DNA of 64,000 bases from Tubulanus polymorphus (lineage: Eukaryota > Nemertea > Palaeonemertea > Tubulaniformes > Tubulanidae), in NCBI RefSeq assembly GCF_964204645.1, contig NC_134033.1, forward strand, positions 12,588,155 to 12,652,154, given 5' to 3'. Below the pieces are notes generated by a model. It was not told where the DNA came from and did not search any database. It worked only from the letters and a program-made list of their open reading frames with translations. The position numbers and the translations under genes are program-made. Below are positions 1,058-61,420 of this stretch, in pieces. Position 1 is the stretch's first letter, and the number at the start of each line of letters is the position of its first letter.

Positions 1058-2150
1058 GTGAAACTAAAGGAAGGAGAAGCGATGACACTTTTGGATAATC
1101 ACGATCCCGTTCAATGGAAGGCAAGTAAAAGAGGATAAAAGATGATATTTATGGGGAATAGGGACGGGATGGCGAGGTGAAACCAATTTGAGAAAATGTG
1201 CCTTACAATTCAAACGCCACTTGCTTTGGTCTTGAATTGTAAAATTGTTGCTGAAATGTATAGAATACGAAGCAAATACGATCATTTGTTTTTTTATTGT
1301 CTATATGATAGGTTCAACAAATTCCAGAGAAAAAATCGAAGGTACAAATAAAACACGGGTGTTTAATGATGTTTGTTTGTTTGTTTGCTTTCATAACATT
1401 TTTTAACAATCGGTTTTAAAACAACAAGAGTCGCACATATTATCATTCACAATGCATGAATTTTAAAAATCCGCTTTTGACCGTTGGCTTATCTTAATCA
1501 TTGAGCTTCAGAGTTTTAACATACCCAACTAGGGTAGTTAGAGATGGCTTTGAAACAAAGGAAACCATTATCTCTGGTGTTCTTCGACTTTTTCCAGAGC
1601 ACTAAGTCCAAGACTTGTACAAATGAAGCACGAATGAACAGTCCTTATAAGATGGGATTCACATATATATACCCATAGAATAAATCTTCACGAATAACAC
1701 TTTTATCAGTTTGCATGATGCTTGTGTATATGGGCTAGGTTTTTACGAATAACACTTGATTATAAGGTTGGATGATGCTCATTTAAATGTTTGACATTTG
1801 TTTTTTGCTTTGCGTTTGATATTGTGTTTAGTATCCAACCGTAATCGATATTTAGTTATTTTCTGCCGAATTTATTTGCATAAATCCATTTTTGCACATA
1901 CAACTGGTATAGCTGTAGTAGCATGGGCATCTTGGTGATATCTTTTTCAGCGGTTGCGTGGAAATATATGTTCCGCATAATTCTTTATATATACCTTTTT
2001 ACAGAACGTGTAATCAATTAGTTTTTATTTTAAATTTCGAATGGATCAGGTGCGGGCACGAACGATTTCGTCGGAAAAAGTCTACAGCGTTCCTTCCTTG
2101 CTGGTGATGATCCCGGGACCTACCGAAGAAGCGGCACTCAAAGTAAAAAC
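1058..2150 (+). CDS. Plakin SH3-domain exons, split by a probable GC-AG intron
   Basis: The first exon (1058-1120) follows a TAG acceptor and reads VKLKEGEAMTLLDNHDPVQW-K, the RT-loop half of a plakin SH3. It ends AAG followed by GCAAGT, the usual context of a GC donor. The next exon (2050-2150) opens after CAG with VRARTISSEKVYSVPSLLVM and ends with the PGPTEEAALKVKT segment typical of plakins just after SH3. Both sides of the intron are phase 0, and the joined WKVR matches the family (WKV). No GT donor in a suitable phase lies nearby. The start of the SH3 domain is outside the window. Confidence 0.8.
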
Positions 2151-5100
2151 GTACGTAAATATCCTACAAACTGGGTATCCATTTTTTGGGAGTCGAAATC
2201 GGAACCTCAAAAATGATCACATAGATCATCTGTGTACTTGTGAACGTACTAAAGAACGAAGATGGGAGACTGACTGACCAAAATAAAAAACACCTATTGT
2301 TTTATTTTCTAAATGTAATGTATACTTGCAATTTCAGAATTGAAGATAAATTGAGGGCCCGGTTTACTGAAAGCACGTCTGTGATACACAAAACAATGGT
2401 GGTTTATTTTCAAATACTTCTTCAATCGTGGCAGACAATGTTCGTAAGTAGCTGTCCACAATTGTGGGATCCGAACGTTTCAACTATGGAATTAATTCTC
2501 ATTGAGAAAATATTAAAGTTTCTATAGAAATCCGATATAGATGATACTTTTTGTTGCATAATCAAGGGTACCAGGATGAAGGAACTTGATAAGAAGGAAA
2601 AGAAGGAAGTGGAAACTGTTTTCGACATGGTAAGCACTTTGATAAGCCGCCATTGGAAAGACGTCGAAACGAAGAAACTTCAAACGGAGGTGAAGCAATG
2701 GAAGAAACTTTTGTCGAAGGCCGGAAAAGGTAATTCAGAATTGATATTATGATTCCGCGCTATGGCGACAAACACCAAACATCGAATTAATCAATCTATA
2801 ATTTGTTCAACGATATTTCATAGGAAAGACCGGTAAAGAAATAACTGATCATTTTCGACAACTGAAGAAGCTAGCATCAGCAGCAAATGTAAGAATTACC
2901 AAATGGAAACTTATCTCCGTTCAAAATTCAATTATGAACCATTGGAACTCACGAGATAATGCTTATTTTCATGTCCGACTCGTTTCTGTTTAGGATAATG
3001 AGTCAAAGATACCATTGAACCCGGAGAAGATTAAGGTGAATGGAGACCAGCTGATTCCGCTTTTACACGGCGAAAAACGACTGTACGCCGACGAATATAA
3101 ACAAAGCCAACAGCGATATAAAAGGTATACAATTACAACTTCTACTATTATTTCTGTGCTCTAAGCAAATGTATTTTTGTTGAGCAAATAATCTAAACTA
3201 AACTAAAAGAAAAACTAGACAATCACCATGAACTGCGCTCCCCTACGCCCACACAGTTGTGAGAGTAGGGTTTTGCTGAGAACTTACTGTGGCTTCTACA
3301 CTCCCGCATAGAAAGGTGTACCAAGATTGTGGTCTCTACGCTCCCAGACATGTACAAGGGGAAGTGGATTTGCAAAAAAAACCCTATCGTGTTGTTTATG
3401 CAACCACATGTGAGGGAGGATTTTACCAGGTTCATGTTATGGCCGTGGTTCTTACTTTTATAGCTTATCCCTCCCATAATTCATGAGTTACACCAACAGT
3501 CAAATATACCACAATAAAATCGATTTAAAATGAATTTCAGGAGATTAGAAGTGACCTACGTAACGAAGGAGATAGAACGGGTTGAGGAGATAACTTACAT
3601 TCCCGTAGACGCGATAGGTGGCGCTGTGAGCCCTGGAGTGAGGGTTGTTACAAGGTCGGTGATCGTCGACGGTGAAGAATTACCGGAAGAGAATGAAACA
3701 CACGTCATAGCGAAGAAGAAACCGAGGACGGTGGACGAATCGGGAACAACCGACAGCGATGAAGATAAACTGCCAAGTAAAAGCAAGAAAGGTGACCACA
3801 AGAAGGTAAACAGATAACCGAATGTAGTTGGCAAGAATGAGATGAAACTGTTCGATGTTTTCTAGTGGGAGATCACGATATGTATCTTAATGGTGAAATG
3901 CAATTTAGATGCAGATTTTAATTCTTTCAATTGTAATGTAATAGCTTAGAAGATGTCTAGTTATTTTTCCGATTTTAATCGAACTATATTACTATGGAAG
4001 AAGCTCCAGCCCAATAATAGATAGGTACCCGATTCGCATACATATCTTTATATTACAGGTGAAGAAATGGACAGAGACTTCGGAGAAAACCGAAACTCGG
4101 CCAGTACGCAATGGAGACAGTTCTTCAGAAGGTGGTGTCGGAGACGACATGGTTGATGATAGCATAGTGAAGGAAATAGCTGTAATAAAGATGATACCGA
4201 ACGAACCAGTTTCTGTCACGATCAGCGATTCGAAATCGATCCAAAATAGTGAAGTGATTCCGACAGAAGGCGATGGCAGGAACGGCGCTGTGGAAGTCGA
4301 GGAGGATATGGACGTGGATGACAACACACGTCAACCGATGGTCCAAAAACGAACAGTCTTAAGAACTACGACTACAACTACGCGCAAGGAGACGTATACT
4401 ATGAGTGGTGATGAGGACAACAGCGACGATGGAAAGAAAAAAGCTCCGGACGGCGTAGAATTCGACTCATCGGTTACAGCTTTACTGAAAGGCGACGATA
4501 ATATACCAATCAGTGAACTGGATAGCAATGAAAATGGGCAAGTCAGTATCCTAAAGGATGACATAAACGAAGATGAACCGATAACGACTATCTTGACGTC
4601 GCGATCATTAGTGTCCGGAGATGAAGGTGTGACGCTGCCACAATCGGTAGACGGTGGTATCGTCTATAAAACCCAGTCGGTGTACAGCAGTAGAGTCGAC
4701 GGAGATGGCGTGGATAGAGAGAGAATTGTAGAGACGTCATCTGTCGGCACTGATGATGGGGGAGCGGACAGAAGACAAGTTTCAACGACTACGACTACGC
4801 GTACGATTTACGGAGAAGGTCGGCTGGATTCGTCGGAAGCCGGGACAACACCATCGGTAGATCGTTTCGGTAATGTCGTGACGAAAGAGGTGACACTTTC
4901 AACGCAAGTAGGTCCCGTTGGTGAGGACGATATCGTAAGTGCAGCGTCTCCGGACGGGAAAGTCGTCGAGGAAAAGGAAAAATTAACGACGACCGATCGT
5001 TTTGGAAATAAAATCGTCACGACAACAAAAACTAAGAGTATAAGCGGCGCGGATAGTCCGGATCTAAGTGATCGAGCGGGTAAAGAAGTTAGGCAGACGA

Positions 5101-8100
5101 CTCTCGTCACGAAGATGGAATTAGTTCCAGACGACGGCAGGCGTGATGCGTTTGATCGATATCCGACGAGTTCTGAAGTAGATCAAGCTGATCAAATAAC
5201 AAGATCACCTACTGGTCGAGTTATCGTTGGGGATGGTACGGGCGACGCACGTTCAAGGCAAATTGACGGAGCGCGAATAAACAAAACCGACGAGTTTGGG
5301 AACGTCATTCAAACGGTCGACAACTCACAGCCTAATCGAGATTCTTCAGGACAAACATTAGGTCCAGATGACGATGAAAATAGCCAATGGGAAACTGATG
5401 AATTTGGTAATAGAATACGGGTCAGAACCACGCGAACAACAAGTAGCGCAGATGGGGCAGATATTGGAAATGTAATCCAGTCAATGACCACAGAAGGGTA
5501 TGACATAGGTCAGGCTGGAGAAGTAAACACGGAGACTGAACTTGATAGATTTGGAAATGTAGTCCCTATAACGACAACAACCATCTACGGTACTGATGGC
5601 GCTCCTGACGTAGGACGCCAAACAGACAAATTTGGCCAGAGGGCAACCACTGATACAATACCGTACGGCATGAGAGAGGGCCCTGCAGATATCAATGAAA
5701 GACCACAGGGAGATGGTAAGGACCTTGATAGATTTGGTAATGTAGTCATTACCACGAGAACGACAGAAACAATCTATGGTAGAGGTGATGCTCCTGATGG
5801 TGGAAACCATACAGATAAATTTGGTCAGAGTTTAACCACTGACACAATACCGTACGGCATAGGACAGGGACTTGGAGATATCGATGGAAGACCACAGGAA
5901 GATACCAGAGACCTCAATAGATTTAGTAATATAGTTACTACCACAACACCGACGGAAATAGTCTACGGTACAGATGGTGCTCCTGATGGTGGAGGTCAAA
6001 CTGATAGATTTGGCCAGAGCGTAACTGCAGATAAATCACAGTATGGCATAGAACAGGGCCCTGGAGAGACCGAAGATCAATCACAGGGAGATGTCAGGGA
6101 ACTTGATAGATTTGGTAATGTAATTACTACCACGAGAACGACGGAAACAAACTACGTTAGAGATGATGCTCCTGACAGCAGAAGCCAAAACGATAGATTT
6201 GGCCAGAGGGCATCCACTGACACAATACCGTACGGCATGAGAGAGGGACCCGGAGATATCGATGAAAGACCACAGGGAGATAACAAAGAACTTGATAGAT
6301 TTGGTAATGTAGTCACTACCACGAGAAAAACGGAAACAGTCTACGGCAGAGATGATGCTCCTGACAGCGGAAGCCAAACAGACGAATTTGACCAGAGGGC
6401 AACCTCAGGTGCAATACCCTATGGCATAGGGCAGGAAGCTATGGACACCGATGAGAGACAACAGGGAGATACCAGAGACCTCGATAGATTTGGTAATGTA
6501 GTCACTACCACGAGAACGACAGAAACAGTCTACGGCAGCGATGATGTTCCTGATGGTGGAAACCAAATCGACGGATTTGGCCAGAGGCTATCAACTGACA
6601 CAATACCGTACGACATAAGACAGGGCCCCGGAGAAAGACCACAGGGAGATGTTAAGAACCGGGATAGATTTGGTAATGTAGTCACTACCACGAGAACGAC
6701 GGAAACAGACTACGGTAGAGACGATGCTCCTGACAGCAGAAGCCAAAACGATAGATTTGGCGAGAGGGCATCCACTGACACAATACCATACGGCATGGGA
6801 GAGGAACCCGGAGATATCGATGGAAGACCACAGGGAGATAACAAAGAACTTGATAGATTTGGTAATGTAGTCACTACCACGAGAAAAACGGAAACAGTCT
6901 ACGGCAGAGATGATGCTCCTGACAGCGGAAGCCAAACAGACGAATTTGACCAGAGGGCAACCTCAGGTGCAATACCGTATGGCATAGGGCAGGAAGCTAT
7001 GGACACCGATGAGAGACAACAGGGAGGTACCAGGGACCTCGATAGATTTGGTAATGTAGTCACTACCACGAGAACGACAGAAACAGTCTACGGCAGCGAT
7101 GAAGTTCCTGATGGTGGAAACCAAATCGACGGATTTGGCAAGAGGGTATCCACTGACACAATACCATACGACATTGGACAAGGCCCCGGAGAAAGATCAC
7201 AGGGAGATGTTAAGGACCGGGATAGATTTGGTAATGTAGTCACTACCACGAGAACGACAGAAACAGTCTACGGTAGAGACGATGCTCCTGACAGCAGAAG
7301 CCAAAACGATAGATTTGGCCAGAGGGCATCCACTGACACAATACCGTACGGCATGGGAGAGGGACCCGGAGATATCGATGGAAGACCACAGGGAGACAAC
7401 AAAGAACTTGATAGATTTGGTAATGTAGTCACTACCACGAGAAAAACAGAAACAGTCTACGGCAGAGATGATGCTCCTGACAGCGGAAGCCAAACAGACG
7501 AATTTGACCAGAGGGCAACCTCAGGTGCAATACCCTATGGCATAGGGCAGGAAGCTATGGACACCGATGAGAGACGACAGGGAGGTACCAGAGACCTCGA
7601 TAGATTTGGTAATGTAGTTACTTCCACGAGAACGACAGAAACAGTCTACGGCAGCGATTATGTTCCTGATGGTGGAAGCCAAAACGATAGATTTGGCCAG
7701 AGGGTATCAACTGACACAATACCGTACGACGAAGGACAGGGCCCCGGAGAAAGACCACAGGGAGATGTTAAGGACCGGGATAGATTTGGTAATGTAGTCA
7801 CTACCACAAAAACAACAGAAACAGTCTACGGTAGAGACCCAAGAGTGACGGCAGAGCAGACATATAGCGTACTTACAGAACCTGAAACTGATAGATTTGG
7901 TAATATCATTACAACTACTCAACGTTCAATGACTACCTACGGAAGAGAGGAAGGCAAAGGGACAGATGAAGAATCTGGAAACGAACGAGACAAATTTGGA
8001 AATCTTGTTGTAACAACTAGAACTACTGAAACGATGTACGGTGGAGTTATATATCCCGATGAAACTGGTGGATTTGGCCAAACGACATCTACACAAGAAC

Positions 8101-11100
8101 CAATCGCCATGCATGGTATCAGCCAGGAGCCCAAAGATGATGCGACGGGTGAAATGAAACTGGGGAATCTAGAAGAGCCTAAAACCGATCGATTTGGTAA
8201 TATTATCACGACTACTACAACATCAAAAGCAATTTATAGTGATGGAACTTCTGCAAGAGAAAGGAAGGACCAGGAAGTGCCTGAGCGCGATCGATTTGGA
8301 AATGTTATACCAACTAGGAAAATCGATGGTTACGGGTACATTGAAAATGACGAAAATGATCAACAAGCACAGCCTGAGACTGATAGATTCGGCAATATTG
8401 TCACAAATCAAAAAATGTCCAGAAATGATAATGACGATAATAGTCCTGAAGAAGATGTAAAGGGCCGGGAGCAACCTGAAACTGTACGGGATAGATTTGG
8501 AAATGTTATCACGACAACAACAACGAAGACAATATCTGATCGGGGAAATCTGTCCACGGATATTGATCGATTTGGTCAAATTATCACGACAACGACCTCA
8601 ACATCTGAAACTACATATGACACTGAAGAACTTGAAGGGAAAGGAAGCGATCTTGGGCAACCAGGAACCAGAACCTTACGAAGCGACGATCAAGAACAGG
8701 AGCCTGAGCGGGAAAGACAGGAACAAACCGAAACTGAACGAGATAGATTTGGGAATATCATCACGACAACTAGAACTACAGACACAGTGTACGGCCGTGA
8801 AACGAGTCCCGAAAAAGAGAGGGAAGATACCGGTGGGTATGGCCGGAAACCTGATACAACTAGAACATTTGGTTCCACGTACGGTCCAGGTCAGGAACCT
8901 GAAGAAACTGTGGTTGAAGAGAAGAGACAAGTGGAATTCACAGAACCGGAAACTGATAGATTTGGTAATGTTATCACGACTACGCAAACTACACTAAGAA
9001 CCTATGGCATAGATCAAGACGTCGACGATCGTCAACAGGAAATATCTGAAACTGAAAAAGATAAATTCGGTCCAACGACAACTAGAACAACCCGTACTGT
9101 GGGTTCTATGTACGGCGGCGGTCAGGAACTTGATAAAACAGAACCTGAAACCGATAGATTTGGTAATGTTGCCACCGATACGCACCCATCTAGAAAAGAT
9201 GAACAACCAGGTCAAACTGAAATAGACAGATTTGGAAACGTGGCCCCCACTGGAACTACAGAAGCGGTTTACAGTGAGGAGAATAGCCAAGACGATCCAG
9301 GAAGGTTTGGCCAAACGACAACTAGAACAACCCGCACAGTGACTTCCATTGGCCAGGAACCCGATGAAACCGTTACTGATAAGACGCAAGATGTTCTAGC
9401 AAAACCTGAAGCTGATAGATTTGGTAATGTTATCACAGCTACAAGAACGACTAAAACAATTTATGATCGTGAAATCAGTCCTGAAACTGATAGAGAAGAA
9501 TGGGACCAACCTGAAGTAGACAGGTTTGGAAATGTAGTAACTAAGGCGAAAGCTACAGATGCAGTATATGGTAAAGAAAAGAGCTCAGATGAACCAGAAA
9601 GGTTTGGCCAAACTACAACAAGAACAGCTCGCACTGTCAGTTCTATGTATGGGATTGGTCAAGAACCTGAAGAGAGTGTGACAGCAGACGATGATCCAGT
9701 AGATATCACGGAATCTGAAACTGATCGATTCGGCAATGTGGTGACAATTACGACTTCCAAAACGGCTTATGGTGCTCGAACTTCAGGAGAAATTGAAGAG
9801 AATCAACCAGAGATTGAACGTGATAGATTTGAAAATGTAATAACAACTACACAAACAAGAACTGTATATGGACGAGAAAAGATGCCTGGAAATGAAGAAC
9901 AGGAACAACCTGAAACTCAGGGAGATAGATTTGGTCAGACGACAACGAGAACAACCCGTACTGTGAGTTCCGTGTATGGTATCGGTCAGGAACCCGAAGG
10001 AGCGGTTTATGACGAAAGAACAGAAGAGGAGTTCAAAGGACCAGAAACCGATAGATTTGGTAATCTTCTGACAACGACTCGAACTTCCCGAACTGTTTAT
10101 GATGATGTGATCCCTGCAAGCGACAGAGACCTCGAACAACCCGTAACCGAACGAGATCGATTTGGAAATATGGTTACGACGACCCAAACCTCCCGAACCT
10201 TGTCTGATCGAGAAGAAACACCTGACGGCTATGAAGATGATCCCCAACATTTATTAGGAACTGAACGTGATAGATTTGGAAACGTTGTTACAACAACAAG
10301 ATCTTTGGAAACAGTTTCTAATCACGGAAAGTTCTCTGGAGAGACAGACTCATCTGGCTTAACGACTAGAACAACCCGCACCGTTAATTCAGCGTACGGT
10401 ATTGATGGACAAGAACCTGAAGAAACAGGTACTGAGGAAATGACACAAGGAGATCTGACAGAAACTCAAATCGATAGATTTGGCAATGTTATTACGACTA
10501 CTATAACTTCTAAAACAATTTATGGTGCAGGAGTCCCTGAAGAAGATATAGTCCATGGGCAACCTGACAATGGCCGAGAAGGGTCTAGAAATGTTATCAC
10601 AACTATTAGAACTGCAAGGACTACCATTGGGGGAGAACAGATTTCTAAAAATGACGAAGCTTCACAAGATGACCAAGGATCTGAAGCAGACAGACTCGTT
10701 CATACTAAGAGTAAAACTATCTATGGCCGAGATGAGACTCCTGAAAATGAAGGACCCGAAACTGAAGGAAATAGACTTGGTCAAACTACAACAATGACAA
10801 CTCGCACTGTAAGTTCCATGTACGGTATCGACCAGGAACCTGAGGACACCGTCACCGAGGAGAAGAGAAACGAGCAGCTTACAGAACCTGAAACTGACAG
10901 GTTTGGTAATATTGTCACGACTACCACAACTGCAAGAACGTTTTATGATGTCCAAACGCCCGATGATGATAAAAACGAAGATAAACCGGAAACTGTACGA
11001 ATTAAATTTGGAAACGTGATAACCACAACTAAAACTATGCAGTTAGAACCTGATAAAGAAAATTCTCCCGACGAATTCGGTGAAAGGATAAGTGCAGTTT

Positions 11101-14100
11101 CCAAGGAACCAAAAGAAACTGTAGATAACGAAACTACACAAGAGGAATTCACAGAACCCGAAACCGATAGATTCGGTAGAATTGTTATCGAGACACCCGA
11201 GGCACCCGAGGATGACACAACGAGATCAAGAACAACTATCTATGGACGGGAAAGGGCTCCTGACAATGATGAACCGACACATCCAGAAACTGAGGTAGAT
11301 CGATTCGGCCAAACCACAACGAGAACAACCCGTACTGTGAGTTCGATGTATGGTATTGGTCAGGGACCTGGAGAAACTATTCCTGGGGAAATCACACAAG
11401 AGCAGCTCAGAGAACCTGAGACTGATAGATTCGGTAATATGATCACTACTACTACTACTTCCACAACTGTGTTCGGTGCTGAGATTCCTGAAGATGAAAG
11501 GGACCAGTTGCAACTTGAACCAGGGAGGGGTCGGTTTGGTACTGGGAGTTCTATGTACGGCGTTGGTCGGGAACCTGACGAAAACGTTACTAAGGAATGG
11601 ACAGAAAAACAGCTTACAGAACCTGAAACTGATAGATTCGGTAACGTTATTACTAGTACGAGAACGTCGAGAACGGTTTATGATTCTGAAACTCCTGATG
11701 ATGTTGGAGACCAAGAGCAACCTGTAACCAAACTGGACAGATTTGGAAATGTTATAACGACGACCAAAACTACACATGGTCGAGAGCAAACTCCTGAACT
11801 CGATGAACGAGAAGAATCCGAGACTGAGAGAGATCGATTTGGCCAAACAACAACTAGAACAACCCGCACTGTGAGTTCCATGTATGGTATTGGTCGGGAA
11901 CCTGAAGAAGGTGTTGCCGAGGGAAATGAATTTACAGAACCTGAAACAGATAGATTCGGCAACGTCATTACGTCCACAATTGTTGCAAATCCAGATGAAA
12001 CCGACAAGCCTCAACCTAGGATTGACCGTGATAGATTTGGAAATGTTAGAACAACTACACACACTACCAGAACTGTCTATGGACGAGAAAAGACGCCTGA
12101 AAATGATGAACAGGAACAAACTGAAACTGAGGGAGGTAGATTTGGTCAGTCGACAACGAGAACAACCCGTACTGTGAGTTCCATGTATGGTGTCGGTCAG
12201 GAACCTGAAGGTGACCAGGCGCAACCTGTAACTGAACGGGACAGATCTGGAAATGTAATCACGACAACAAGAACTACCCATGGCCGAGAACAGACCCCTG
12301 AAAATGATGAACAGGGACAAGCTAAAACTGATTCAGATCGATTTGGCCAAACGACAACCAGAACAATCCGTACTGTGAGTTCATTGTATGGCATCGGTCG
12401 AGAACCTGATGAAACTGTCACTGAGGAAAAGAGTCAAGAGGTTCTAGCAGAACCTGGAGGGACTGACAGGTTCGGTAATATAATAACTACTACAAGTTCC
12501 AGAACTGACTATGGTGTTGAATCCCAGGGAGAAACGGATGGGACCCAACCTGAGATTGAACGAGATAGATTTGGAAATGTAATAACAACTACCAGAACTA
12601 CAAGAACTATCTATAGCCGAGAAGAGACGCCTGAAAATGATGAACAGGAGAAACCCACAACAGAACGAGATCGATTTGGCCAAACAACAACAAAGACAAC
12701 CCGCACTGTGAATTCTATGTATGGTATTGGTCAAGAACCAGGGGAAACTTTGGCTGAAGGAACACACGGGGATCTCACAGAACCAGAAACTGATAGCTTT
12801 GGTAACATAATCACTACTAGAACTTCGAGAACGGTTTATGGTTATGAAACTCCTGAAGGTGGCCAGGAGCAACCTGTAACTGAACGAGACAGGTTTGGAA
12901 ATGTAATTACGACAACCAGAACTACCCATGGTCGAGAGCAAACTCTTGAAAATGATGGACGTAAACAACCTGAAAGTGATAGAGATCGATTTGGCCAAAC
13001 CACAACTAGAACAACCCGCGCTGTGAGTTCCATGTATGGTATTGGTCAGCAACCTGGAGAAACCGTTACTGGGGAAAAGATACACGAGGTTCTAACAGAA
13101 CCTGAAACTGATCGTTTTGGTAATATAATCGCTACCACAACTTCCAGAACTGTATATGGTGATCAACACCAGGAAGAAACTGGCAAGGATCAACCCGAGA
13201 TTGAACGGGATAGATTTGGCAATGTAATAACAACTACCAGAACCACAAGAACTATTTATGGAGAACAGACCCCTGAAAATGATGATCAGGAAAAACCTGA
13301 AACTGATAGAGATGGATTTGGCCAAACAACAACAAGGACAGCACGTGATGTGAGTTCTATGTATGGTATCGGTCAGGGAAGTGAAGAAACCGTTACTGAG
13401 GAAATTACACAAGAACAGTCCACCGAACCTGAAACTGATAGATTCGGAAATATTGTCACTACCACTAGAACTTCGAGATCTGTTTACGGTTTTGAGGCTC
13501 CTGACGAAGAAAGGGACCAGATGCAACCTGAAGATGAAAGGGATAGATTTGGTCAAACGACGACTACCACAACCCGCACTGTGAGTTCAATGTATGGTGT
13601 CGGTCAGGGACCTGAAGAAACCGTTACTGAGGAAATTACACAAGAGCAGCCCACCGAACCTGAAACTGATAGATTCGGAAATATTGTCACAACCACTAGA
13701 ACTTCGAGAACTGTTTACGGTTTTGAGGCTCCTGACGAAGAAAGGGACCAGATGCAACCTGAAGATGAAAGGGATAGATTTGGTCAAACAACGACTACCA
13801 CAACCCGCACTGTGAATTCCATGTATGGTGTGGGTCGGGAACCTGAAGAAAGTGTAACCGAGGAAAAGACGCAAGAGGAGTTTTCAGAACCTGAAACTGA
13901 TAGACCGGAGCGTGATAGATTTGGAAATATTGTCACAACCACTAAAGTTTCGTTAACAGGAGGTGATGAACCTGATGTAGACAGGGTTGGTAGAGCTACA
14001 ACAAGGACCACGCAGGAAATATACGGTATCACCGGAAATAAGCCGGATGTTAGCCAAACTGAACAAACTGTGATAGTTAAAACCGAACGATTTGGAAACA

Positions 14101-16013
14101 AAATCACCTCTGGTGGGGAGATAGACATAACAGAGTCCGATAGACGGCGCTATGGTGGCTTCGGAGAAAGTAGCACTGACGCCGATATTGCTTCCTCAAC
14201 GACGACCGTGACTACGAAAAGAATGTATGGCCTGGATGACAACGACAATGATGGCGATAAAGAGGGATATTCGGAAACGATAACTGAAACGCGCTACGGA
14301 ATAGAACAATCCGAAGTACCGAGTGAGGTTGTCGACGATGATAGATGGCGCAGTGATAGTGGCTGGCGTGATCGTAGAACGATCACTGAAACGTGGAAGA
14401 CAGAAGAGGGTGATGGTTCCAGACCGGACGACCTAGTAGCCAAAGATGCGGGAGATGATGAAAAATGGAAAACCGATAGAGGCTGGAGTGATACGCGCAC
14501 AGTCACAGAACGATGGAAAACAGGAACTGGTGATGATAGTGGTGATGGTGGTGTTGATGAGAGGAAGGAGGGTGGTGACGATGAGAAATGGAGAAGTGAT
14601 GGAGGATGGAGTGACACTCGTACGGTCACGGAGAGATGGAGAACAAGAGAGGCCGGTGATGGTGACGACGCCTCTGGTGGAGGTGCGGATTCCCGACGTG
14701 AGACTCGTCGTCTGGGTAGATCAGACTCGCAGACGGATAGAGATCGCGATGATCACGCCATCACGAAACGTCATTCATTCATAAAAGCCGGATTCGACGG
14801 CGGCGCTCAGCGACTAGAGATCCAAGTTCGAGCGCCCGAAGACAGTGCTTCACTGCAACAAGACTGGGGTGAAGAGAAGATGATTTCGCTCGGTGAACGT
14901 GAAGAAATGGAATTAGCTGAATCAGAACAAGTTTTACAGGTACGCATTTCTATTTGTATGGGCAATGATAAAGTGAACATTCACAATATTTAGCGGGAAG
15001 TCAGGCCGTGGGTTCGAAACCCATACATTACCATAGTGTCCCCGGGCAAGACATTTAACCTTCAGTGCCTCTCCTCACCCAACTATAGAAATTAAACTAT
15101 TCGAATTACTATCATTATCATTAATAACTTTCCTATTTTTCTTCTCTTTTTGAATTAGTCGAAGGGAGAGGTTACGCAAACGTTCTTTGTCGAGGCGGTA
15201 ATCGATCCGAGAAACGACGAAGCCATTTCGTTAGACGACGCTCGAGCGCTCGGCATAATAGACTCCGCTCATGGGCAATACGTGAATATCCAAACTGGGC
15301 GTCGAATCCCGATCCCTCAAGCGATGAGCGAACAGAAAATCATCATTACCTACGAAACGAAAAGCGAAACTGAAGAACCGTCGAAATCGTACGGAATCAT
15401 CAAGATCAAACACTTGCACGCCCGACCGGCGTCGAAATATAAAATACATCACGTGATACACCCGGTCACCAATCGAGTGCTGACGTTATCTGAGGCAACA
15501 GCGCAGAATGTCGTCGACGAAGCTTTGACTACTTATCGAAACCCGAAATCCGGCAACGAGATACCGCTTTCCGAGGCAATCGAGAAAATGAAGGTATTGG
15601 CAGACGAGCAAGACGAAAACGAACAGCCGAAGACGCCGCTTTCTCCCGGGCCGGACTACGAACCGGACAGCGAGAAGACTTACGTGGTAAGCGCTGTCGT
15701 CGATCGGTTACAAAAGCGACGCGTTTCGTTCCGAGAAGCGGCGAATATCGGACTACTGGATCAACTGAACGGAACTTTCAAGGACAACGTAACCGGAGAA
15801 TCGATGTTCATCGGCGACGCCATACATAAGGGTTTCCTGAAAGTTCGCGAACTCGACTCGAAAGAAACGTTGGATATCGATCCTACCAACCACGTCGTCG
15901 TATCGCGGGTTAACATGTTGAAAAAGAAGATTCTCAACCCTTTGAAAGCGATTCGCGCTTTCCGGTCGTCGAGACTGTCGACAACGCACGAAGACGAAGA
16001 ATCTCACGCTTAA
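1058..16013 (+). CDS. Plakin (spectraplakin/plectin-like cytolinker), 3' half of the gene
   Basis: I place nine coding exons at 1058-1120, 2050-2150, 2338-2443, 2567-2729, 2824-2888, 2994-3124, 3541-3805, 4059-14939 and 15159-16013; all phases agree, giving 4209 residues from the first visible exon to the stop. The order is an SH3 domain of the kind embedded in plakin domains (exons 1-2: LKEGE, MTLLDNHDPVQWK, then VYSVPSLLVMIPGP), a Lys/Glu-rich helical rod (exons 3-6), an acidic Ser/Thr linker (exon 7), the giant repeat exon, and plectin repeats. Plakins link actin, microtubules and intermediate filaments at junctions. The N-terminal half, including any actin-binding domain, lies left of the window. 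No EF-hands or GAS2 domain follow, so this end resembles the plectin/epiplakin type or a plectin-repeat isoform of a spectraplakin. Family call firm; orthology open. Confidence 0.9.
4059..14939 (+). CDS. Giant plakin exon encoding DRFGN repeats (3627 residues without a stop)
   Basis: A single open frame of 10,881 bases runs from a TTACAG acceptor to a CAG/GTACGC donor, phase 0 at both ends. After about 260 acidic residues, the protein is built of repeats with the core D-R-F-G-N-[VI]-[VI]-T-T-T followed by R-T-x-x-T-x-Y-G; I count about 44 exact DRFGN and 25-30 RFGQ variants. Modules near 62 residues fill about 5.5-7.9 kb; from 7.9 to 13.95 kb the units are longer and mix 'PETDRFGN', 'ERDRFGN' and 'RFGQTTTRTTRTVSSMYG' modules. 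The last 220 residues hold three Trp-rich repeats. Composition (Thr, Arg, Asp, Glu, Gly; few Leu, Cys or Trp) predicts disorder and many R-x-T phospho-acceptor sites. I know of no named domain with this core. A linker, spring or multivalent scaffold role is inference. Confidence 0.88.
6172..7845 (+). repeat. 558-bp higher-order tandem repeat inside the plakin giant exon (three copies)
   Basis: The block beginning CTTGATAGATTTGGTAATGT recurs at 6291, 6849 and 7407, exactly 558 bp (186 codons) apart. Each copy holds three roughly 62-residue modules in the same order (NKELDRFGN..RKT, TRDLDRFGN..RTT, KDRDRFGN..RTT). The copies differ at few positions, far fewer than neighbouring modules differ from each other, which implies recent unequal exchange or gene conversion. 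The period is a multiple of three, so copy-number changes would keep the frame. Confidence 0.85.
13390..13850 (+). repeat. 231-bp in-frame duplication in the plakin giant exon
   Basis: The segment starting CCGTTACTGAGGAAATTACA at 13390 recurs at 13621, a 231-bp (77-codon) step, with very few differences. Both copies encode a TDRFGNIVTTTRTS module followed by DRFGQTTTTTTRTV. It is a second local expansion, independent of the 558-bp block. Confidence 0.75.
14331..14650 (+). repeat. Three Trp-rich repeats at the end of the plakin giant exon
   Basis: Three units of about 35-40 residues share the pattern D-[DE]-x-W-[KR]-[ST]-D-x-G-W-x-D-x-R-T-[IV]-T-E-[TR]-W-[KR]-T, separated by Gly/Asp-rich spacers. 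They are unlike the DRFGN modules, which almost lack Trp, and sit directly before the plectin-repeat exon. Regular Trp spacing suggests a small folded or ligand-binding element; that is inference. Confidence 0.75.
14998..15085 (+). repeat. SINE fragment in the last plakin intron
   Basis: A tRNA-type B-box (GTGGGTTCGAAACCC) is followed by GTGTCCCCGGGCAAGACATT and a CCTCTCCTCACCC tail. The same tail plan occurs in the copy at about 36.3 kb, so this is a 5'-truncated SINE. Confidence 0.6.
15159..16013 (+). CDS. Terminal plakin exon with about three plectin repeats
   Basis: This exon begins after TTAG and encodes 284 residues to a TAA. Three plectin-type units are visible: VIDPRNDEAISLDDARALGI with YVNIQTGRRIPIPQAM; VIHPVTNRVLTLSEA with NPKSGNEIPLSEAI; and VVDRLQKRRVSFREAANIGL with NVTGESMFIGDAI. 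The pattern (T-x3-[IL]-S-x-x-E-A, then G-x-x-[IL]-x-x-A) is that of the repeats that bind intermediate filaments in plectin, desmoplakin and epiplakin. The tail is short and basic (LKKKILNPLKAIRAFRSSR), then acidic. Codon use is GC-richer than in the repeat exon. Confidence 0.9.
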   Translation, partial: SKGEVTQTFFVEAVIDPRNDEAISLDDARALGIIDSAHGQYVNIQTGRRIPIPQAMSEQKIIITYETKSETEEPSKSYGIIKIKHLHARPASKYKIHHVIHPVTNRVLTLSEATAQNVVDEALTTYRNPKSGNEIPLSEAIEKMKVLADEQDENEQPKTPLSPGPDYEPDSEKTYVVSAVVDRLQKRRVSFREAANIGLLDQLNGTFKDNVTGESMFIGDAIHKGFLKVRELDSKETLDIDPTNHVVVSRVNMLKKKILNPLKAIRAFRSSRLSTTHEDEESHA

Positions 16014-18105: not shown

Positions 18106-19658
18106 TCATAGTTTAACTGTGGCTAGTAAAGTCGCTATGAACCCGATCATGGCTCCGATTCCGCTGATAATCCATAACATACTCGTATCCGTATTACTTT
18201 TAAAGCTGTTCACGATATCTTCCTGAAATGAGGGTAGAAGAAAGAAATAAGCCATTTATCAAACGAAAATAAAGTGTCGATAATTGATTTTTCTAAATAA
18301 ACTCTGCTTCCACTAACAGGTGAATGATGGTTCAAAGTTAAAAAAGAAAATATCAATAGATTCTTGACAATTAAAGTGACTTCCTTTCTTTGATCAACAA
18401 GTCGACAAGCTGCCAAGTCCTCCTCCCAATCCGTGGAAAACTTCCCAGATTGTCCCCATTATATCCAACGTTACTTTGCAATAATTTCAGTATACATGAA
18501 TACTGCACAGGACAAACAATATATCCTAGCAGAAATAACTTACCCATCCGCCTTGAATGGAGATCCAATTGGCTAAATTTCTATTTACGAATACTCCGAA
18601 ATGTTCTATCAGTTTGTGAACGTATTCAGGGTGACCTTGTTGCACGCAGTCGACAGCTATGCCACCTATTAGCGCGAACAAAGCGACGATTTTACCCCAG
18701 TGAATTTCGCCTTTCATCATGTATTCGCCGATCGATACGAACGTCTTTCTCACTATCTCCTCGTTGCTCATCGTAACGTTGATTTGACGCGAAATGCTTC
18801 GGTAAAGTTCGGGATAGATTCGCTCGAGTTCGGAGCCGATCAGCTGCACTTGATTCGAAACGGCCGAACATTCGTGAACTTCCGGCGCCGGTGGCAGTTT
18901 ACTGCTGTAATATAAACCGGAACGTTTAATCCGATTCAGGATGTAATCCCGGACTAGCTGTTTCGATTCTTCGGTTATCTGGTCCAAATCGGGAGTATCG
19001 ACACTGCTCAGATTTAAACCTGCAAAATACAAAAATCAGCATCCGTACGTGAAAATATGGTATCGCCTTTTCGGTCATACATCATGAATCGTAACCCCTT
19101 TTGCTATCACATTTCTTCTTATTGGGTTAACGCAAAAATCAAACGTTCAAAACAAATTGTAAAGAAACAAACCACTGACAAACTTGTAATTTCACCGGAA
19201 ATATTTTTTTCAATGCCAAAATTAAGTCTCTAAAACCATTTTTAAAACTTCACCACACAACCTGCAGGATAGTATTTAAACGGTCATCATAAAGCGGGGG
19301 GGGGGGGCACTTTTTGAAAGGGTCATAACCTAAGCGTATTCTTTGTACGATTGCCTTTGAAAATAGTTCCGACCCTTTATGAAACGACAATATACTTAAA
19401 AATACTCGACTACAGATATATAGTCTTGTCACCCCGGAAACTGTCGGTAGTCTCCGTATTGGTATTTGTACCTGTTATCACCGTCTGCGATAATTTTCGA
19501 GAGAGACGTTTTACGTTCGTCCTAGTTCGGGAATACGACGGAACCATGTCGGCAAGACTCGGCACTCTCCGCAAACGGATCGGTTTCAGCACGGCTATCG
19601 TCTCAACTGACTTGAATACGTCATCTTCGTTATCATCATAGATACGGTTTGCCGCCAT
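18106..19658 (-). CDS. BOK: BOK-type pro-apoptotic Bcl-2 family protein
   Basis: Three exons, read on the minus strand as 19658-19433, 19019-18544 and 18222-18106, join in phase to 272 residues. A basic, Ser/Thr-rich N-terminus of about 80 residues precedes the Bcl-2 fold. BH3 lies near 133-147 (VQLIGSELERIYPELYRSIS), BH1 near 181-198 (IHWGKIVALFALIGGIAVDC), BH2 near 227-240 (WISIQGGW), and a hydrophobic tail anchor near 250-270. The AVDC and GGW contexts and the exon plan match BOK, which acts at ER and mitochondrial membranes in apoptosis. The usual GDE of BH3 is GSE here. I chose the Met at 19658 (AATGG context); an in-frame Met at 19700 would add 14 residues. Bax/Bak-type paralogues are the alternative, less likely. 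Confidence 0.9.
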
Positions 19659-23046: not shown

Positions 23047-24351
23047 AGATATGAGGAGAATATGGTGATAGTACACGCTAGATAGATATGTTTGATCAGT
23101 GCCGTATGACATGTGACCCCATTTGACGAACACTTGTCATTTTTCGCGCCATTTGACTACATAGGACAGTTACTCGTGAGAACTGTTACTCGTGGTAACA
23201 GGTTGGTATTGTAGGTCTATGTCGCGAAGTAACACGTGGATCTATACCCGCATTATGAGACTGGTGTTCTAATGAGCCTGGTTCTAATTGAAGAGAGAGG
23301 CGCTGAGAGGCGCTAACAAATAGAAGTTTTGCTTAAATCTAATTAGATCAACATATAGTTAGGAACAATTTCAATATCGCTGTTGTTTAAGTGATTTTTA
23401 ACACTAGCGAAATTCAAAGTTCTACTTTCTGGAGTTCCATTCTCGATAATCATCTCAAACCATAGGACCAACCAGCAGTTGACCCCTGTACCGTGGCAAA
23501 CCAACCAAAAATGGAGATATCCTTCCTAGGACCGACACGGATAGCTCGAAGTGTTAGTTCCAATCCTGATCCCCGCTGTCACAGATTGGGGAAGTCAAAA
23601 TATAAATCCTAAGATCGCTACGTGTTTCTGTTAGTCCCTGCTGGTGACAGATTGCGATCAGATTCGCGTGTCAACACAAATCGATATATCTGTGTATCAT
23701 AAATTGAACAGATTTTTTTATCTTGGTAGATCGACTGAGCGTATATCTAAGGCGGAATGAATAGCTCGCACGTTTTGTCTTTAATATCTGAACGAGAAGC
23801 TTGAAAATGATTCAAAAATACGTATTTTGATACGAATGAGGCTGAAGTGTTCCGGTAATGCTTTAGACAAGTTTTAATTACTTAAACAATCTGTAAAAGT
23901 ATGGCAAATATGGCATGTATATACGCAGATACGCGGTTTCTAGATTCCCGTGCGATTTTCTTTGAAAGAGCGACTAACGTGTATTCATTTTCCCTCCTTA
24001 TTGAACGCGCAACACTATTGAGCGTTGAGGTTATTTCAACATTTGGTTTTGTTGTTTCGATATTTGCCACAGCCTGCGCTCGAATATTGCATTGCGACCA
24101 TAACGCCATATGTCGCCCGCCAGACGATACGCGCGCGTTGGTTTCCCATTTCCTCACAAATCAAAAACTGTTTTCAATCACGCCCGTGCGGTGTATGTTT
24201 GTGCACAAACTACGCACTAGGAACTAGACGGAAATATCTCGTCAAAACAACGGGACTTTACTTTAAACCTCTACAACAAAGAAAGAAATAGGAATTGTAT
24301 AACTGGTCTGTATCTTTGCAAAATACGACGAAAGAGGGATTTGTTGAAAAC
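23047..24351. other. Spacer before the LicD-family gene
   Basis: This is AT-rich DNA with no recognisable coding sequence. It probably holds the divergent promoters of the minus-strand gene below 23.05 kb and the LicD-type gene above 24.35 kb. A plus-strand frame at 23901-24227 has no protein-like features. Confidence 0.4.
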
Positions 24352-25326
24352 ATGTTTAGCATGACGAGGAAAGTGCGGTTGCCGGGTGTGTTGATTACAG
24401 CGCTGGTTCTAGTACTCATCATCGTTTTAATGATGTTCGGCCGAGGCTATTTAGACGCCGATGCCCTGGCGATTGTTTCCGAAAAAGAAGCCGTCATCGA
24501 AAGGCCGCTACCAGGCCGCGGACTGTTGAAGGAATACGTCACCGATAAAATGAAATTCGTCTCGCAAAACGTGTCGTACACGTTCGAGCCGGGTTTGAGT
24601 AGAGTCGAGAGAATGAAATACATTTCTCTGATAAAAACCATTCACGGTCTGCTGGTCGACAACCGTATCGAATACATGATACATTTCGGGACTCTGTTAG
24701 GCGCGTATCGCCATCACGGGTTCGTACCGTGGGACGACGATTTCGACGTGCTCGTAAAACAGTCCGAAAAACTTCGTTTGGTAGATATATTCAAGCGGGC
24801 GCCCACGGTGAGAGCCTACTATATGCAGGACGAACAGTTCTTCAGGGTATACATACGCGACGAGCCTGTCGTGAATCGTCGGCCTTATTCGTGGCCTTTC
24901 GTCGATGTTTTCATGTACGAAGAATTCGGGGATATCATCCACGACATCTCGAAAGTACAAAATCATTACTGGGCGGATAAGAAATTGATTTTCCCCTTGG
25001 TCGAAGTGCCGTTCGAAGAACTGTGGTTACCGGCGCCGAAATATATGTCGAAAGTACTGGATCTTATGTTTACCATGTCTAACTATAACGATTATTGCGC
25101 CCGAGGCGGCGAGAATCATAAAACGGGCGAAAATCGACATAAAATCAGGTTACTGTGCCACGAAGTGAAACCGCGTCACCCGTTTGTCATGCGCACCTGT
25201 CTAAACGACACCGTCACCGAATCTCTCGTGGTCGGCGATGTAGTTTTGCACAAGTGGAAATATTTGAAAAAGTCGAACGTAGTTCCGCAGGACGATTCGA
25301 TGGTTTGCGATGATGACGATGACTAA
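24352..25326 (+). CDS. LicD/fukutin-family nucleotidyltransferase-like type II membrane protein
   Basis: An intronless frame of 324 residues. A short basic N-terminus is followed by one membrane span (LPGVLITALVLVLIIVLMMF), giving a Golgi/ER type II topology. The hallmark LicD motif follows near residues 120-145: HFGTLLGAYRHHGFVPWDDD, then FDVLV, with the DDD/D metal-binding acidic cluster intact; WPFVDVF and FPLVEVPFEELWLPAP are further family landmarks. Relatives transfer phosphocholine (LicD) or ribitol-phosphate (fukutin/FKRP, on alpha-dystroglycan); the substrate here cannot be told. The C-terminus is a run of Asp. Two close ATGs (24352, 24361) are possible; I took the first, since the frame upstream has no other ATG. 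The gene is GC-richer than its surroundings. Confidence 0.88.
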   Translation: MFSMTRKVRLPGVLITALVLVLIIVLMMFGRGYLDADALAIVSEKEAVIERPLPGRGLLKEYVTDKMKFVSQNVSYTFEPGLSRVERMKYISLIKTIHGLLVDNRIEYMIHFGTLLGAYRHHGFVPWDDDFDVLVKQSEKLRLVDIFKRAPTVRAYYMQDEQFFRVYIRDEPVVNRRPYSWPFVDVFMYEEFGDIIHDISKVQNHYWADKKLIFPLVEVPFEELWLPAPKYMSKVLDLMFTMSNYNDYCARGGENHKTGENRHKIRLLCHEVKPRHPFVMRTCLNDTVTESLVVGDVVLHKWKYLKKSNVVPQDDSMVCDDDDD

Positions 25327-58641: not shown

Positions 58642-59691
58642 TCATTCGAACCAAATACGACAGCGGATTCTCATACAGAAATATTCACGAATTTCCCTCC
58701 CCAATAAAAGATATATGTAGAAATTAACGACATAATTACACAATTCGAACTGAGCGGAAATGTCTAAAAGAATATGTGTCTGTCCCGGTGCGACTGGTAT
58801 GAATACGTTAATAGTGTTTGGAATTGTAAATATCGCAAATGCAAGTGAAACTGTTACAAGCATTATTGTTGTACGTTTTGATTTTGTAGTTTTCTGATCG
58901 GACGAAACCATTTTTGAACCTCCAAATAACTGTACCATTATTAAAGAATTTGATATTATAATCACCGATAAAGGCAGAACAAAAACGTACATAACATACG
59001 TCATAGAAAGTAGAAATTGATCAAACGGCTCGTTGTAACATCTAAAGATATCCACAAAATTCGTTTTCGCTGAATGATGAATGCCAATTACCAATACGTT
59101 CATTACAAAAATGATAACGATAGCGCATCTGGCGAATTTAGGTGTACATATCAAACGGGATTTGAACGGGAAGAGAACAACTCCCGCACGTTCTAGAGAT
59201 ATCGCTACTATCAACCAGGCACTACAAGCACCCATAGAATTCAACAGAGATTCATAAAATTGACAACTGATCAGCGAATTCACTAAGAATATCGGCCCGG
59301 TTTCTAGATGCAATAGAGCAAACTGTAATACGGGCATTAGTGTATAGCCGATACAGAAAACCAAGTCACTGAAAGCCAAAGCGATCAGATAGTTAGCGTA
59401 AGATAAACCGCGGAATCTGCGACTCATCATTACCAGAAAGGAAGCCGAATTCCCAAATGCTCCTAATAAGAACATGATAAGCAGAATGACCATTGACAGT
59501 AAGCGGTAGATTCCAGACTTGTTCATCAGAGACATAAGAACGATGTTACTGCTATAAGCAGGAAGAATCTGCATCTCTTGGGTAGAATTCATTAAAGTTG
59601 TAGCAAATCTAGATTCCGTACAGCGAGTTCCGAGTCTAATAAATGTATAGTCATATATGATAAAGGTAGACCCTATACGTGTATTCATCAT
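58642..59691 (-). CDS. Class A (rhodopsin-like) G-protein-coupled receptor, intronless
   Basis: A frame of 349 residues with seven hydrophobic spans. Landmarks: TM1 GN (80-81), TM2 LIALAFSD (102-109), TM3 start Cys143 pairing with ECL2 Cys218, TM3 end SLERAG (E-R in place of D-R-Y), TM6 FAIFTIP (no CWxP) and TM7 NFYIY at 323-327 in place of NPxxY. N-terminal glycosylation sites NST and NKS. The second in-frame Met (59592, MNSTQEM) is a plausible start and would leave a short extracellular tail; I kept the long form. The pattern is that of orphan peptide-type receptors (FMRFamide/TRH-receptor-like) expanded in invertebrates. Ligand unknown. The E-R, F-x-x-P and NFxxY changes may alter activation. 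Confidence 0.9.
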   Translation of the reverse strand: MMNTRIGSTFIIYDYTFIRLGTRCTESRFATTLMNSTQEMQILPAYSSNIVLMSLMNKSGIYRLLSMVILLIMFLLGAFGNSASFLVMMSRRFRGLSYANYLIALAFSDLVFCIGYTLMPVLQFALLHLETGPIFLVNSLISCQFYESLLNSMGACSAWLIVAISLERAGVVLFPFKSRLICTPKFARCAIVIIFVMNVLVIGIHHSAKTNFVDIFRCYNEPFDQFLLSMTYVMYVFVLPLSVIIISNSLIMVQLFGGSKMVSSDQKTTKSKRTTIMLVTVSLAFAIFTIPNTINVFIPVAPGQTHILLDISAQFELCNYVVNFYIYLLLGREIREYFCMRIRCRIWFE

Positions 59692-61420
59692 TTTATTTGT
59701 AAACGAGATGAAAATTATGGTTTACTGCGAGGTTAAAATCAATTCTCACAAATCTAACACAATCAACTCAGATTTTGTCAAATGTTTTATTCTGTAGAAT
59801 TTAACTGAATCATTTAATGCCACCAACGTAGAAATTTAGTAATATGATTACTGTATTCGGAGTTAGTGGAAATGTCTATTCGTAATTTTCTCTGGACAAA
59901 AGGGTTAGGTACTATTATAGCGATAGTGGTCGGAAGTCAAATATTGCAAATGCGAGTGAAACTGGTAGGTTTTGATTTAGTTATTGGTCGCCAAGTCCGA
60001 TATACGGGTATAGTGCAATATATAGAGTTACTTTGGAAGTAAATCACGAAATTTGCGCAAGCTGAAATCTAAAAGAGTAGTAATATACGGAACTCAAATA
60101 AGCTCCATGAAAATAGATTGGGGATCAACTTCCACGAACCCCGTCCAAACCCGACACTTTCACATTCAGCTCTGAGTCGTCTCCAAAAACCATTCCAAAC
60201 CCTGGATGCCATTTTCAACTCCAAAACCTTTACACAAAACCGACGATTTGAAACTCATCATTAGGATCTCTAGCGACATATCGAGTCAAATTGGAAGATG
60301 TGCTTTACAGTTAAATCGATCTCTTGACCTTAAATCGAAACTCTAATGCGCGCAGTATATGGCGGATACTGAAAACCGTCAATGCGCTTCTAGGATCATT
60401 ACGCTTAAAATGGATTCTAAAATTCTCATTGAATCTAAAAAAAAAGATTCGCTAATGCGTGTTGAAGGGGGTCGTCGCTGTGCCCTATTGATCAGCAGCA
60501 CGAATAGCGCGGAAACTATGATTGCATGAGTTTTCTTATTTAATATCGAGTTTTCGGCGAGTCGGTTTTATAGCGCGCGCTCTGAGCAGACGACTCGGGT
60601 GGCGACCTGCGCCGCGAGAACTCACGATTTTACCATATCCAACACCGAGGCAATAGATAATCTTTTAAATTAGAACTAGATTACTGTCTATTACTACATG
60701 AAATATGTTTTATTCCGTTGAAAGATATTTGAATTCCAATTCAGTCGAGATTAATGTGTCCCTTCAAGATTTATTTTCTAACATAATTCTTTTTTTGTAG
60801 ATAAGAACATTTGATAAGGACTCAGTCCGGGTCCTTTTCTTCCCGAAAATTGATTTCTGATTAGTAATTCTTTTCGATGAATTGCATACGCTGCGATAAG
60901 TACGACTAAGAGTTTGCCCAGAAGGAGTAAAATCGTTTATTAGGGAATTTATGATTTATCATATGGACTCAAATTTCATATGAGCATTTGTGGACTCAAA
61001 TTTCATTCATATAATGCATTCTAGCCACTGTTCCGTTGTTAAGATCTCGTGTACGGAAGTTGCTCATCTTTGAAACGGGTTTAAAGTCTGAATCGTTATT
61101 TTCATCGAAAACATTAAGTAACCAATAGCAATTAAACAAGAAAATCTAAATCTGAATTTCTTCCCTAAAACTGATCAAAAAGTTATAAGCTATCAAAAAT
61201 GGTCTACAAAACAGTTGCGCGTACGTCTGACCCCAACGTTCAACTTGTCATGAATATATCTAAAGTTGAGAACCCGGTGCGTTAAGCATTAACGTATATA
61301 TTCAATATATTTAATGATATATAGCAACTGGTGGTTATTTTAGTATAATTATCATTTCGATTAGTGCAGGTTGAAATTACGGTGAGGCCATATGGTGCCC
61401 GGGTGCACTTGGAATATCAA
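59692..61420. other. GPCR upstream flank and unassigned DNA
   Basis: Apart from the receptor fragment at 59.84 kb, I see no coding sequence. A GC-rich patch near 60.57-60.62 kb (GCGCGCGCTCTGAGCAGACG, GGTGGCGACCTGCGCCGCGA) could be a promoter. Confidence 0.4.
59836..59995 (-). pseudogene. Decayed fragment of a second GPCR copy
   Basis: Sequence such as GTTAGTGGAAATGTCT, CAAATATTGCAAATGCGAGTGA and GGTTTTGATTTAGTTATTGG parallels 58.75-58.90 kb in the intact receptor (CGGAAATGTCT, AAATATCGCAAATGCAAGTG, CGTTTTGATTTTGTAGTT), the TM6-TM7 coding region. No open frame survives. It marks a tandem duplication of the receptor that was lost. Confidence 0.7.

Follow-up and report, generated by a model that had tools for sequence, protein, structure and literature searches.

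A giant exon of a Tubulanus polymorphus plakin gene probably encodes a selected, disordered array of Thr/Arg-rich motifs with a short likeness to intermediate-filament heads

In a plakin gene of the nemertean Tubulanus polymorphus, the usual position of the rod is occupied by a 10.9 kb exon that very probably encodes a selected, disordered array of short motifs. The exon lies within a window of 64,000 nucleotides, the whole stretch of DNA analyzed here (NC_134033.1, positions 12,588,155 to 12,652,154 of the forward strand). We see an even chance that the array works as a disordered and multivalent docking device in place of the plakin rod, with intermediate filaments (IFs) as its most likely partner through imitation of their heads; it may also bind something else, or nothing. 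What is new here is the motif GNVTTT(K/T)T in three IF heads encoded by the same genome, which resembles the repeated cores of the plakin. Even without the link to IFs, the gene would be a case of a plakin in which a disordered array of selected motifs has taken the place of the rod; a nearby paralogue retains the short form.

The gene was followed as a chain of exons from approximately 500 bases before the window to its end, with a plectin-repeat exon, at position 16013, and the phases agree at every junction (Table 1); upstream of 3541 the chain is a hand-read model, supported by the phases and by the SH3 match. The joined upstream exons match Pfam SH3_10 with an E value of 1.2e-12 (positions 2-65 of 65), and their product matches the spectrin-SH3 structure of plectin (3pe0) at E 6e-4 over 13-155, with no spectrin Pfam model above its cut-off. 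At the other end, the last exon matches Pfam Plectin (PF00681, E 1.1e-12) and, by blastp, the repeats of a spectraplakin encoded on C2 of this genome (E 1e-26). Its nearest solved sequence is the desmoplakin C-terminus (1lm5), and its AlphaFold model contains repeated hairpin-helix elements at moderate confidence, the best Foldseek matches being desmoplakin repeats (1lm7/1lm5), which are weak (E 0.05). The SH3_10 and 3pe0 matches upstream, the Plectin repeats downstream and the matching phases together indicate that the gene is a plakin, as the earlier note had proposed. Not all plakins have a rod in the stretch that separates plakin domain and plectin repeats, and a gene can belong to the family without one. 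An exon-wise search at E 1e-3 found no CH domain on C9 near the gene, the 5' end of which lies beyond the model, and an IF rod (PF00038, Filament) was found neither in the giant exon nor on C9.

Several statements of the earlier note on the surroundings of the giant exon can be retained. The single frame of 3627 codons is indeed uninterrupted, with no stop in 4059-14939; the plectin-repeat exon follows in phase; and the array sits in the usual rod position, between the SH3 part and the terminal plectin repeats. The proposed in-phase join to an SH3 exon was right as to the phase and as to a plakin SH3 lying upstream, but the adjoining exon (3541-3805) is not the SH3, which is spread across exons ending at 2150, and five more exons precede the giant exon.

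Table 1. Exons of the plakin gene and subdivisions of its giant exon (positions in the window)
Feature	Position	Strand	Details
Plakin SH3 exon, middle part (VKLKEGEAMTLLDNHDPVQWKA)	1058-1124	+	phase 0 in, 1 out; weak SH3_10 genome match
SH3 mini-exon (SSTNSREKIE)	1312-1341	+	phase 1 in, 1 out; splice signals; within SH3_10 match
SH3 end (VYSVPSLLVMIPGPTEEAALKVK)	2081-2150	+	phase 1 in, 2 out; splice signals; within SH3_10 match
Putative helical (spectrin-repeat-like) exon after SH3	2338-2443	+	phase 2 in, 0 out; splice signals; presumed helical
Helical exon (KELDKKEKKEVETVF...KKLLSKAGK)	2528-2729	+	phase 0 in, 1 out; splice signals
Short helical exon	2824-2888	+	phase 1 in, 0 out; splice signals
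Exon DNESKIPLNPEK...QSQQRYK	2994-3124	+	phase 0 in, 2 out; splice signals
Exon adjoining the giant exon upstream (RRLEVTYVTKEIERVEEITYIP...)	3541-3805	+	phase 2 in, 0 out; splice signals; no Pfam match
Giant exon	4059-14939	+	3627 codons; phase 0/0; no Cys; Thr 16%; about 80 DRFG(N/Q)-type units
Unique acidic/Thr-rich N-terminal segment of the giant exon	4059-4859	+	267 residues; no Pfam match
Zone A: regular N+Q pairs, about 63 residues each	5544-7889	+	Tandem Repeats Finder period 189 bp, 12.3 copies
Zone B: older, diverged N-N-Q and N-Q units	7890-14084	+	periods 327 and 231 bp near the end; synonymous near-saturation
Second repeat type, W(R/K)(S/T)DxGWxDxRTxTExW(K/R)T, 3 copies	14346-14645	+	starts 14346, 14466, 14589
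Last exon: plectin (plakin) repeats and stop	15159-16013	+	phase 0 in; Pfam Plectin

The frame without a stop spans 3945-14993, and the exon within it translates into 3627 residues. Its borders read TTACAG followed by GTGAAG at the start and TTACAG followed by GTACGC at the end, both in phase 0. Apart from Thr, the product is rich in Glu, Gly and Asp (approximately 10% each) and Arg (9%), with Cys at none of the 3627 positions. The repeat unit is composed of a Thr/Arg core of 17-20 residues and an acidic spacer whose length differs between units; the core is either of N type, DRFGN(V/I)(V/I)TTTRTTxTVYG, or of Q type, DRFGQTTTRTTRTVSSMYG. Exact counts in the exon are 44 for DRFGN, 13 for DRFGQ, 61 for RFG[NQ] and 25 for TTTRT, and there are approximately 20 degenerate cores in addition. 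When the sequence was shuffled 1000 times with its composition kept, no shuffle had DRFG[NQ] more than once (as compared with 57 exact occurrences observed) or TTTRT more than twice. The earlier count of about 44 DRFGN cores is thus exact, while that of 25-30 RFGQ variants was too high, since about 16 are exact and the others are degenerate Q-type cores (DEFDQ, DGFGQ, DKFGQ, DRFGE).

Along the exon, N-Q pairs make up the first third, followed by N-N-Q units (327 bp) and then by N-Q units (231 bp), and Tandem Repeats Finder accordingly reports periods of 189, 327 and 231 bp. The 62-residue module described earlier applies to the first third, as an N+Q pair of two units of 29-34 residues, but not further on. 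Zone A also contains higher-order copies of 558 bp (186 residues), two of which (6294-6851 and 6852-7409) share 96.6% DNA identity, which points to recent growth in one part; the greater portion of the array is old. Two further observations were made in this region. The Trp-rich repeat at 14346-14645 shows no relation to the DRFGN core, and an antisense ORF of 368 codons (11226-12332, minus strand) lies opposite the repeats, where it is explained by the codon make-up of the repeats and needs no gene.

The IF genes of this genome comprise a lamin-like gene on C5 and cytoplasmic IF genes on C7, and the heads of the C7 cluster (C7:15680413-15685620) share GNVTTT(K/T)T. The three head exons (C7:15680413, 15682737 and 15685045) contain HGNVTTTKTIY, SGNVTTTKTTMEY and CGNVTTTTTKVTY, respectively, and follow the pattern M(A)ST.T......(K/A)x(H/S/C)GNVTTT(K/T)T or one close to it. 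A codon pattern built from the heads had four matches in 268 Mb, namely the three heads and one out-of-frame match in a nuclear-receptor exon, and none in the reversed controls. GNVTTT(K/T)T is the best conserved block in the N-terminal half of the head, and its conservation among the three paralogues, despite third-position change in all eight codons, indicates that the motif matters to the animal.

The plakin cores GN(V/I)(V/I)TTTRT and GQTTTRT resemble this head motif; compared with it, the N core has one inserted residue (GNVVTTTKTT) and the Q core has one missing (GQTTTRTT). When scored with a profile of the plakin cores, the three heads were outscored by only 23, 2 and 7 of 3000 shuffles; their scores, 4-7 bits, are not significant in a database sense, the heads are paralogues and hence not independent, and the motif was found by a deliberate look at the heads. 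No IF head was among the matches, up to an E value of 10, of a 59-residue repeat query against the genome. The shared motif is short (6-8 residues) and Thr-rich, and the DRF part, which is conserved more than any other in the plakin core, is absent from the heads. The likeness between cores and heads, short and confined to three paralogues, is suggestive.

IF heads, which are also rich in Ser, are like the cores in being Thr/Arg-rich and disordered and in carrying a short GN-TTT-(K/R/T)-T motif. In IF proteins, however, each chain bears a single head, attached to a coiled-coil rod, whereas a single plakin chain bears approximately 80 motifs, lacks the IF rod and has the added DRF. Heads of vimentin, desmin and neurofilament proteins self-associate through labile cross-beta contacts, which are reversed by phosphorylation (PMC12054801, PMC11189308), and an isolated IF head of C. 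elegans localizes to hemidesmosome-like organelles, where it has an interfering effect (PMC4351089). Binding of plakins to IF heads (type II keratin) has been reported and disputed, and desmoplakin has been reported to bind IFs via coil 1 and not via the head (PMC6171917); the coil 1 report concerns binding by plectin repeats, not by a DRFGN array.

We propose that the usual rod would be replaced by a disordered chain of approximately 3600 residues, in which some 80 short Thr/Arg-rich motifs would be held apart by acidic spacers. Each core would represent a weak binding site, and many of them on a flexible tether, with a contour length of about 1.3 um, could together hold a polymer tightly but in a reversible manner. 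With the plakin domain at one end and the plectin repeats at the other, the array would be placed between a membrane junction and the cytoskeleton. The short shared motif would point to the IF itself as the most likely partner: given the resemblance to GNVTTT(K/T)T of this animal's IF heads, the cores could take part in the cross-beta contacts between heads by which IFs are held together, and a chain bearing some 80 head-like motifs would lend itself to entering such labile contacts. The outcome could be decoration of filaments or their nucleation at the junction, and Thr phosphorylation might control the binding. In its strictest form, in which the array consists of tandem mimics of the IF head and the plakin binds, nucleates or gels IFs with its copies joining the cross-beta head assembly, the proposal is a tentative one. 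If true, plakins would have a second grip on IFs, distinct from that of the folded plectin-repeat groove at the IF rod; head motifs, copied many times along one extended chain, could become part of the low-complexity assembly by which filaments are kept together; and cross-beta head domains and the junctional anchoring of IFs would be tied to one naturally amplified motif. A synthetic peptide of the shared motif would allow a direct test.

The same array could also dock, in a multivalent way, to a partner other than IFs, such as a folded adaptor, microtubules, the membrane or a kinase scaffold. The selection pattern described below would fit such a partner equally well, the Thr/Arg-rich cores and 145 basic-x-(x)-S/T sites would fit phospho-control, and DRFG, the best conserved piece, is missing from IF heads. 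No candidate partner of this kind was found, though, and it is to IF heads that the sole motif shared within the genome points. We see this as a possibility of the lesser sort, well short of an even chance.

Evidence that the cores do something comes from a comparison of the repeat units with each other. In the diverged part of the array, N units show synonymous differences of 0.64-0.78 per site in every codon block, with pN/pS values of 0.47 for codons 5-11, 0.91 for codons 11-19 and 0.92 for codons 19-27, and Q units give 0.25, 0.39 and 0.57 over successive codon blocks from core to spacer. Codons 0-4 (pN/pS 0.03) were left out of this evidence, as the units had been picked by those codons. 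With synonymous sites near saturation while the core is conserved, these values indicate that selection acts on the repeat protein, and that the core was kept while the copies had time to change. They also bear on the idea of a passive spacer, that is, a charged and disordered chain acting as an entropic spring and setting how far apart plakin domain and plectin repeats can lie, with cores that are relics of tandem duplication and bind nothing specific. Such a spacer would be in agreement with the disorder suggested by AlphaFold and composition, with the recent, homogenised copies of zone A, which show growth driven by duplication, and with the small paralogue on C9, which manages without an array. 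Nevertheless, a pure spacer needs no fixed core, and the contrast between core codons 5-11 and the N spacers (approximately 0.9), at near-saturated synonymous sites, makes it unlikely. Between the alternatives named in the earlier note, a disordered linker or a docking array, the docking array is thus favoured over a passive linker, the core being under selection and the spacer drifting.

As for the state of the chain, AlphaFold, run on a ten-row alignment of repeat blocks, gave a mean pLDDT of 32.4 with no residue above 50, and placed strands on some cores without confidence. Mean hydropathy lies well inside the disordered side of the charge-hydropathy line, and mean net charge is +0.7 for the cores (near neutral to basic) and -4.0 for the acidic spacers. 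The array therefore looks disordered, which these predictions support without proving, and the earlier suggestion, from composition, of a disordered chain is supported by both the absence of Cys and the charge-hydropathy result; in vivo, too, the chain would be disordered. A new folded repeat domain, such as a beta-solenoid or an array of beta-hairpins, could be imagined from the beta-prone V/I/T stretch and the strands modelled on some cores, but with every residue below a pLDDT of 50, inconstant spacer length, low hydrophobic content and no Cys, it is very improbable, and we rejected it on the AlphaFold result. That the exon is an artefact (a separate gene, a pseudogene or an untranslated tandem repeat open by chance) is still less credible, in view of 3627 open codons, divergence biased to synonymous sites and consensus splice sites with phases that match on both sides.

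No Pfam family matches the DRFGN repeat over its full length, in keeping with the earlier remark that no named domain with this core is known, and no Pfam rod match was found in the giant exon. On the whole exon protein, SAM_HAT_C (PF20257) reached E 2.9e-47, a value that is the sum over many copies of one match of 13-20 residues (DRFGNVVT); a single block of 109 residues scored 20.7 bits against a cut-off of 25.5 and aligned to 13 of 84 positions. Membership in this family was rejected, and the match taken as chance local resemblance or convergence of the short DRFGNVVT string. In this genome the repeat has a single locus, with no others at E up to 10 apart from two poor matches. Outside the locus, the pattern GN[VIM][VIM]TTT had five stray matches as compared with 13 in reversed controls, and the generic Q pattern GQTTTxT, with 21 matches of which nine lie elsewhere and as many in reversed controls, is unspecific; neither pointed to a further gene. 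Collections of prokaryotic and viral contigs contained no relative of the repeat, solved structures gave no match for the array, and a literature search for the strings DRFGN and GNVTTT returned no paper.

Two other plakin loci of this genome can be compared with the gene. The spectraplakin at C2:23.13-23.17 Mb encodes a CH domain, and in it two ORFs, of 4320 and 4750 codons, follow one another (23142742-23155701 and 23156087-23170336); they are largely plectin repeats, the second being very Thr-rich (10.7%); in their 9070 residues there is no G[NQ]x(0-2)TT. Spectraplakins (the C2 copy, MACF1, dystonin, Shot) share with our gene the SH3-bearing plakin domain, plectin repeats and giant exons, but the C2 copy differs in its CH domain, in its two giant exons of plectin repeats and in having no DRFGN cores. 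The small paralogous plakin, at C9:15377810-15379853, has an SH3 (15377882-15378079) and a plectin-repeat exon (15379545-15379853; Plectin E 5.9e-9) that is homologous to the last exon of the giant-exon gene (E 2e-10). Its SH3 and plectin repeat are approximately 1.5 kb apart, with no rod exon, other long exon or array between them, which indicates that the giant exon is an acquisition peculiar to this gene or to the lineage it belongs to. Moreover, as the 0/0 phase of the giant exon keeps the frame when it is skipped, an isoform without it, resembling the short paralogue, is possible.

Among plakins with a short rod or none, envoplakin, periplakin, desmoplakin and C. elegans VAB-10A have, like this gene, an SH3-bearing plakin domain followed by terminal plectin/plakin repeats, which in those proteins bind IFs. 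In them the middle part is taken up by a coiled-coil rod, by spectrin repeats or by a short linker, unlike the Thr/Arg array found here. We know of no short-rod or rodless plakin that carries a Thr/Arg repeat array, and our search of papers found no plakin with one. Giant exons of ankyrins and other giant alternative exons have the same layout as this plakin exon, in that each is huge, preserves the frame and encodes a long disordered insert between folded domains; sequence and host protein are unrelated.

As to the neighbourhood of the plakin gene, a Rab6-like gene was read by eye upstream of it. Further along the window there are a BOK-like exon of the Bcl-2 family (18526-19035, minus strand; PDB structures of BOK at E of about 1e-31), a single-exon protein of the LicD family (fukutin-like; 24292-25326, E 3e-18) and a single-exon GPCR of the rhodopsin type (58642-59721, minus strand; Pfam 7tm_1, E 1.1e-18).
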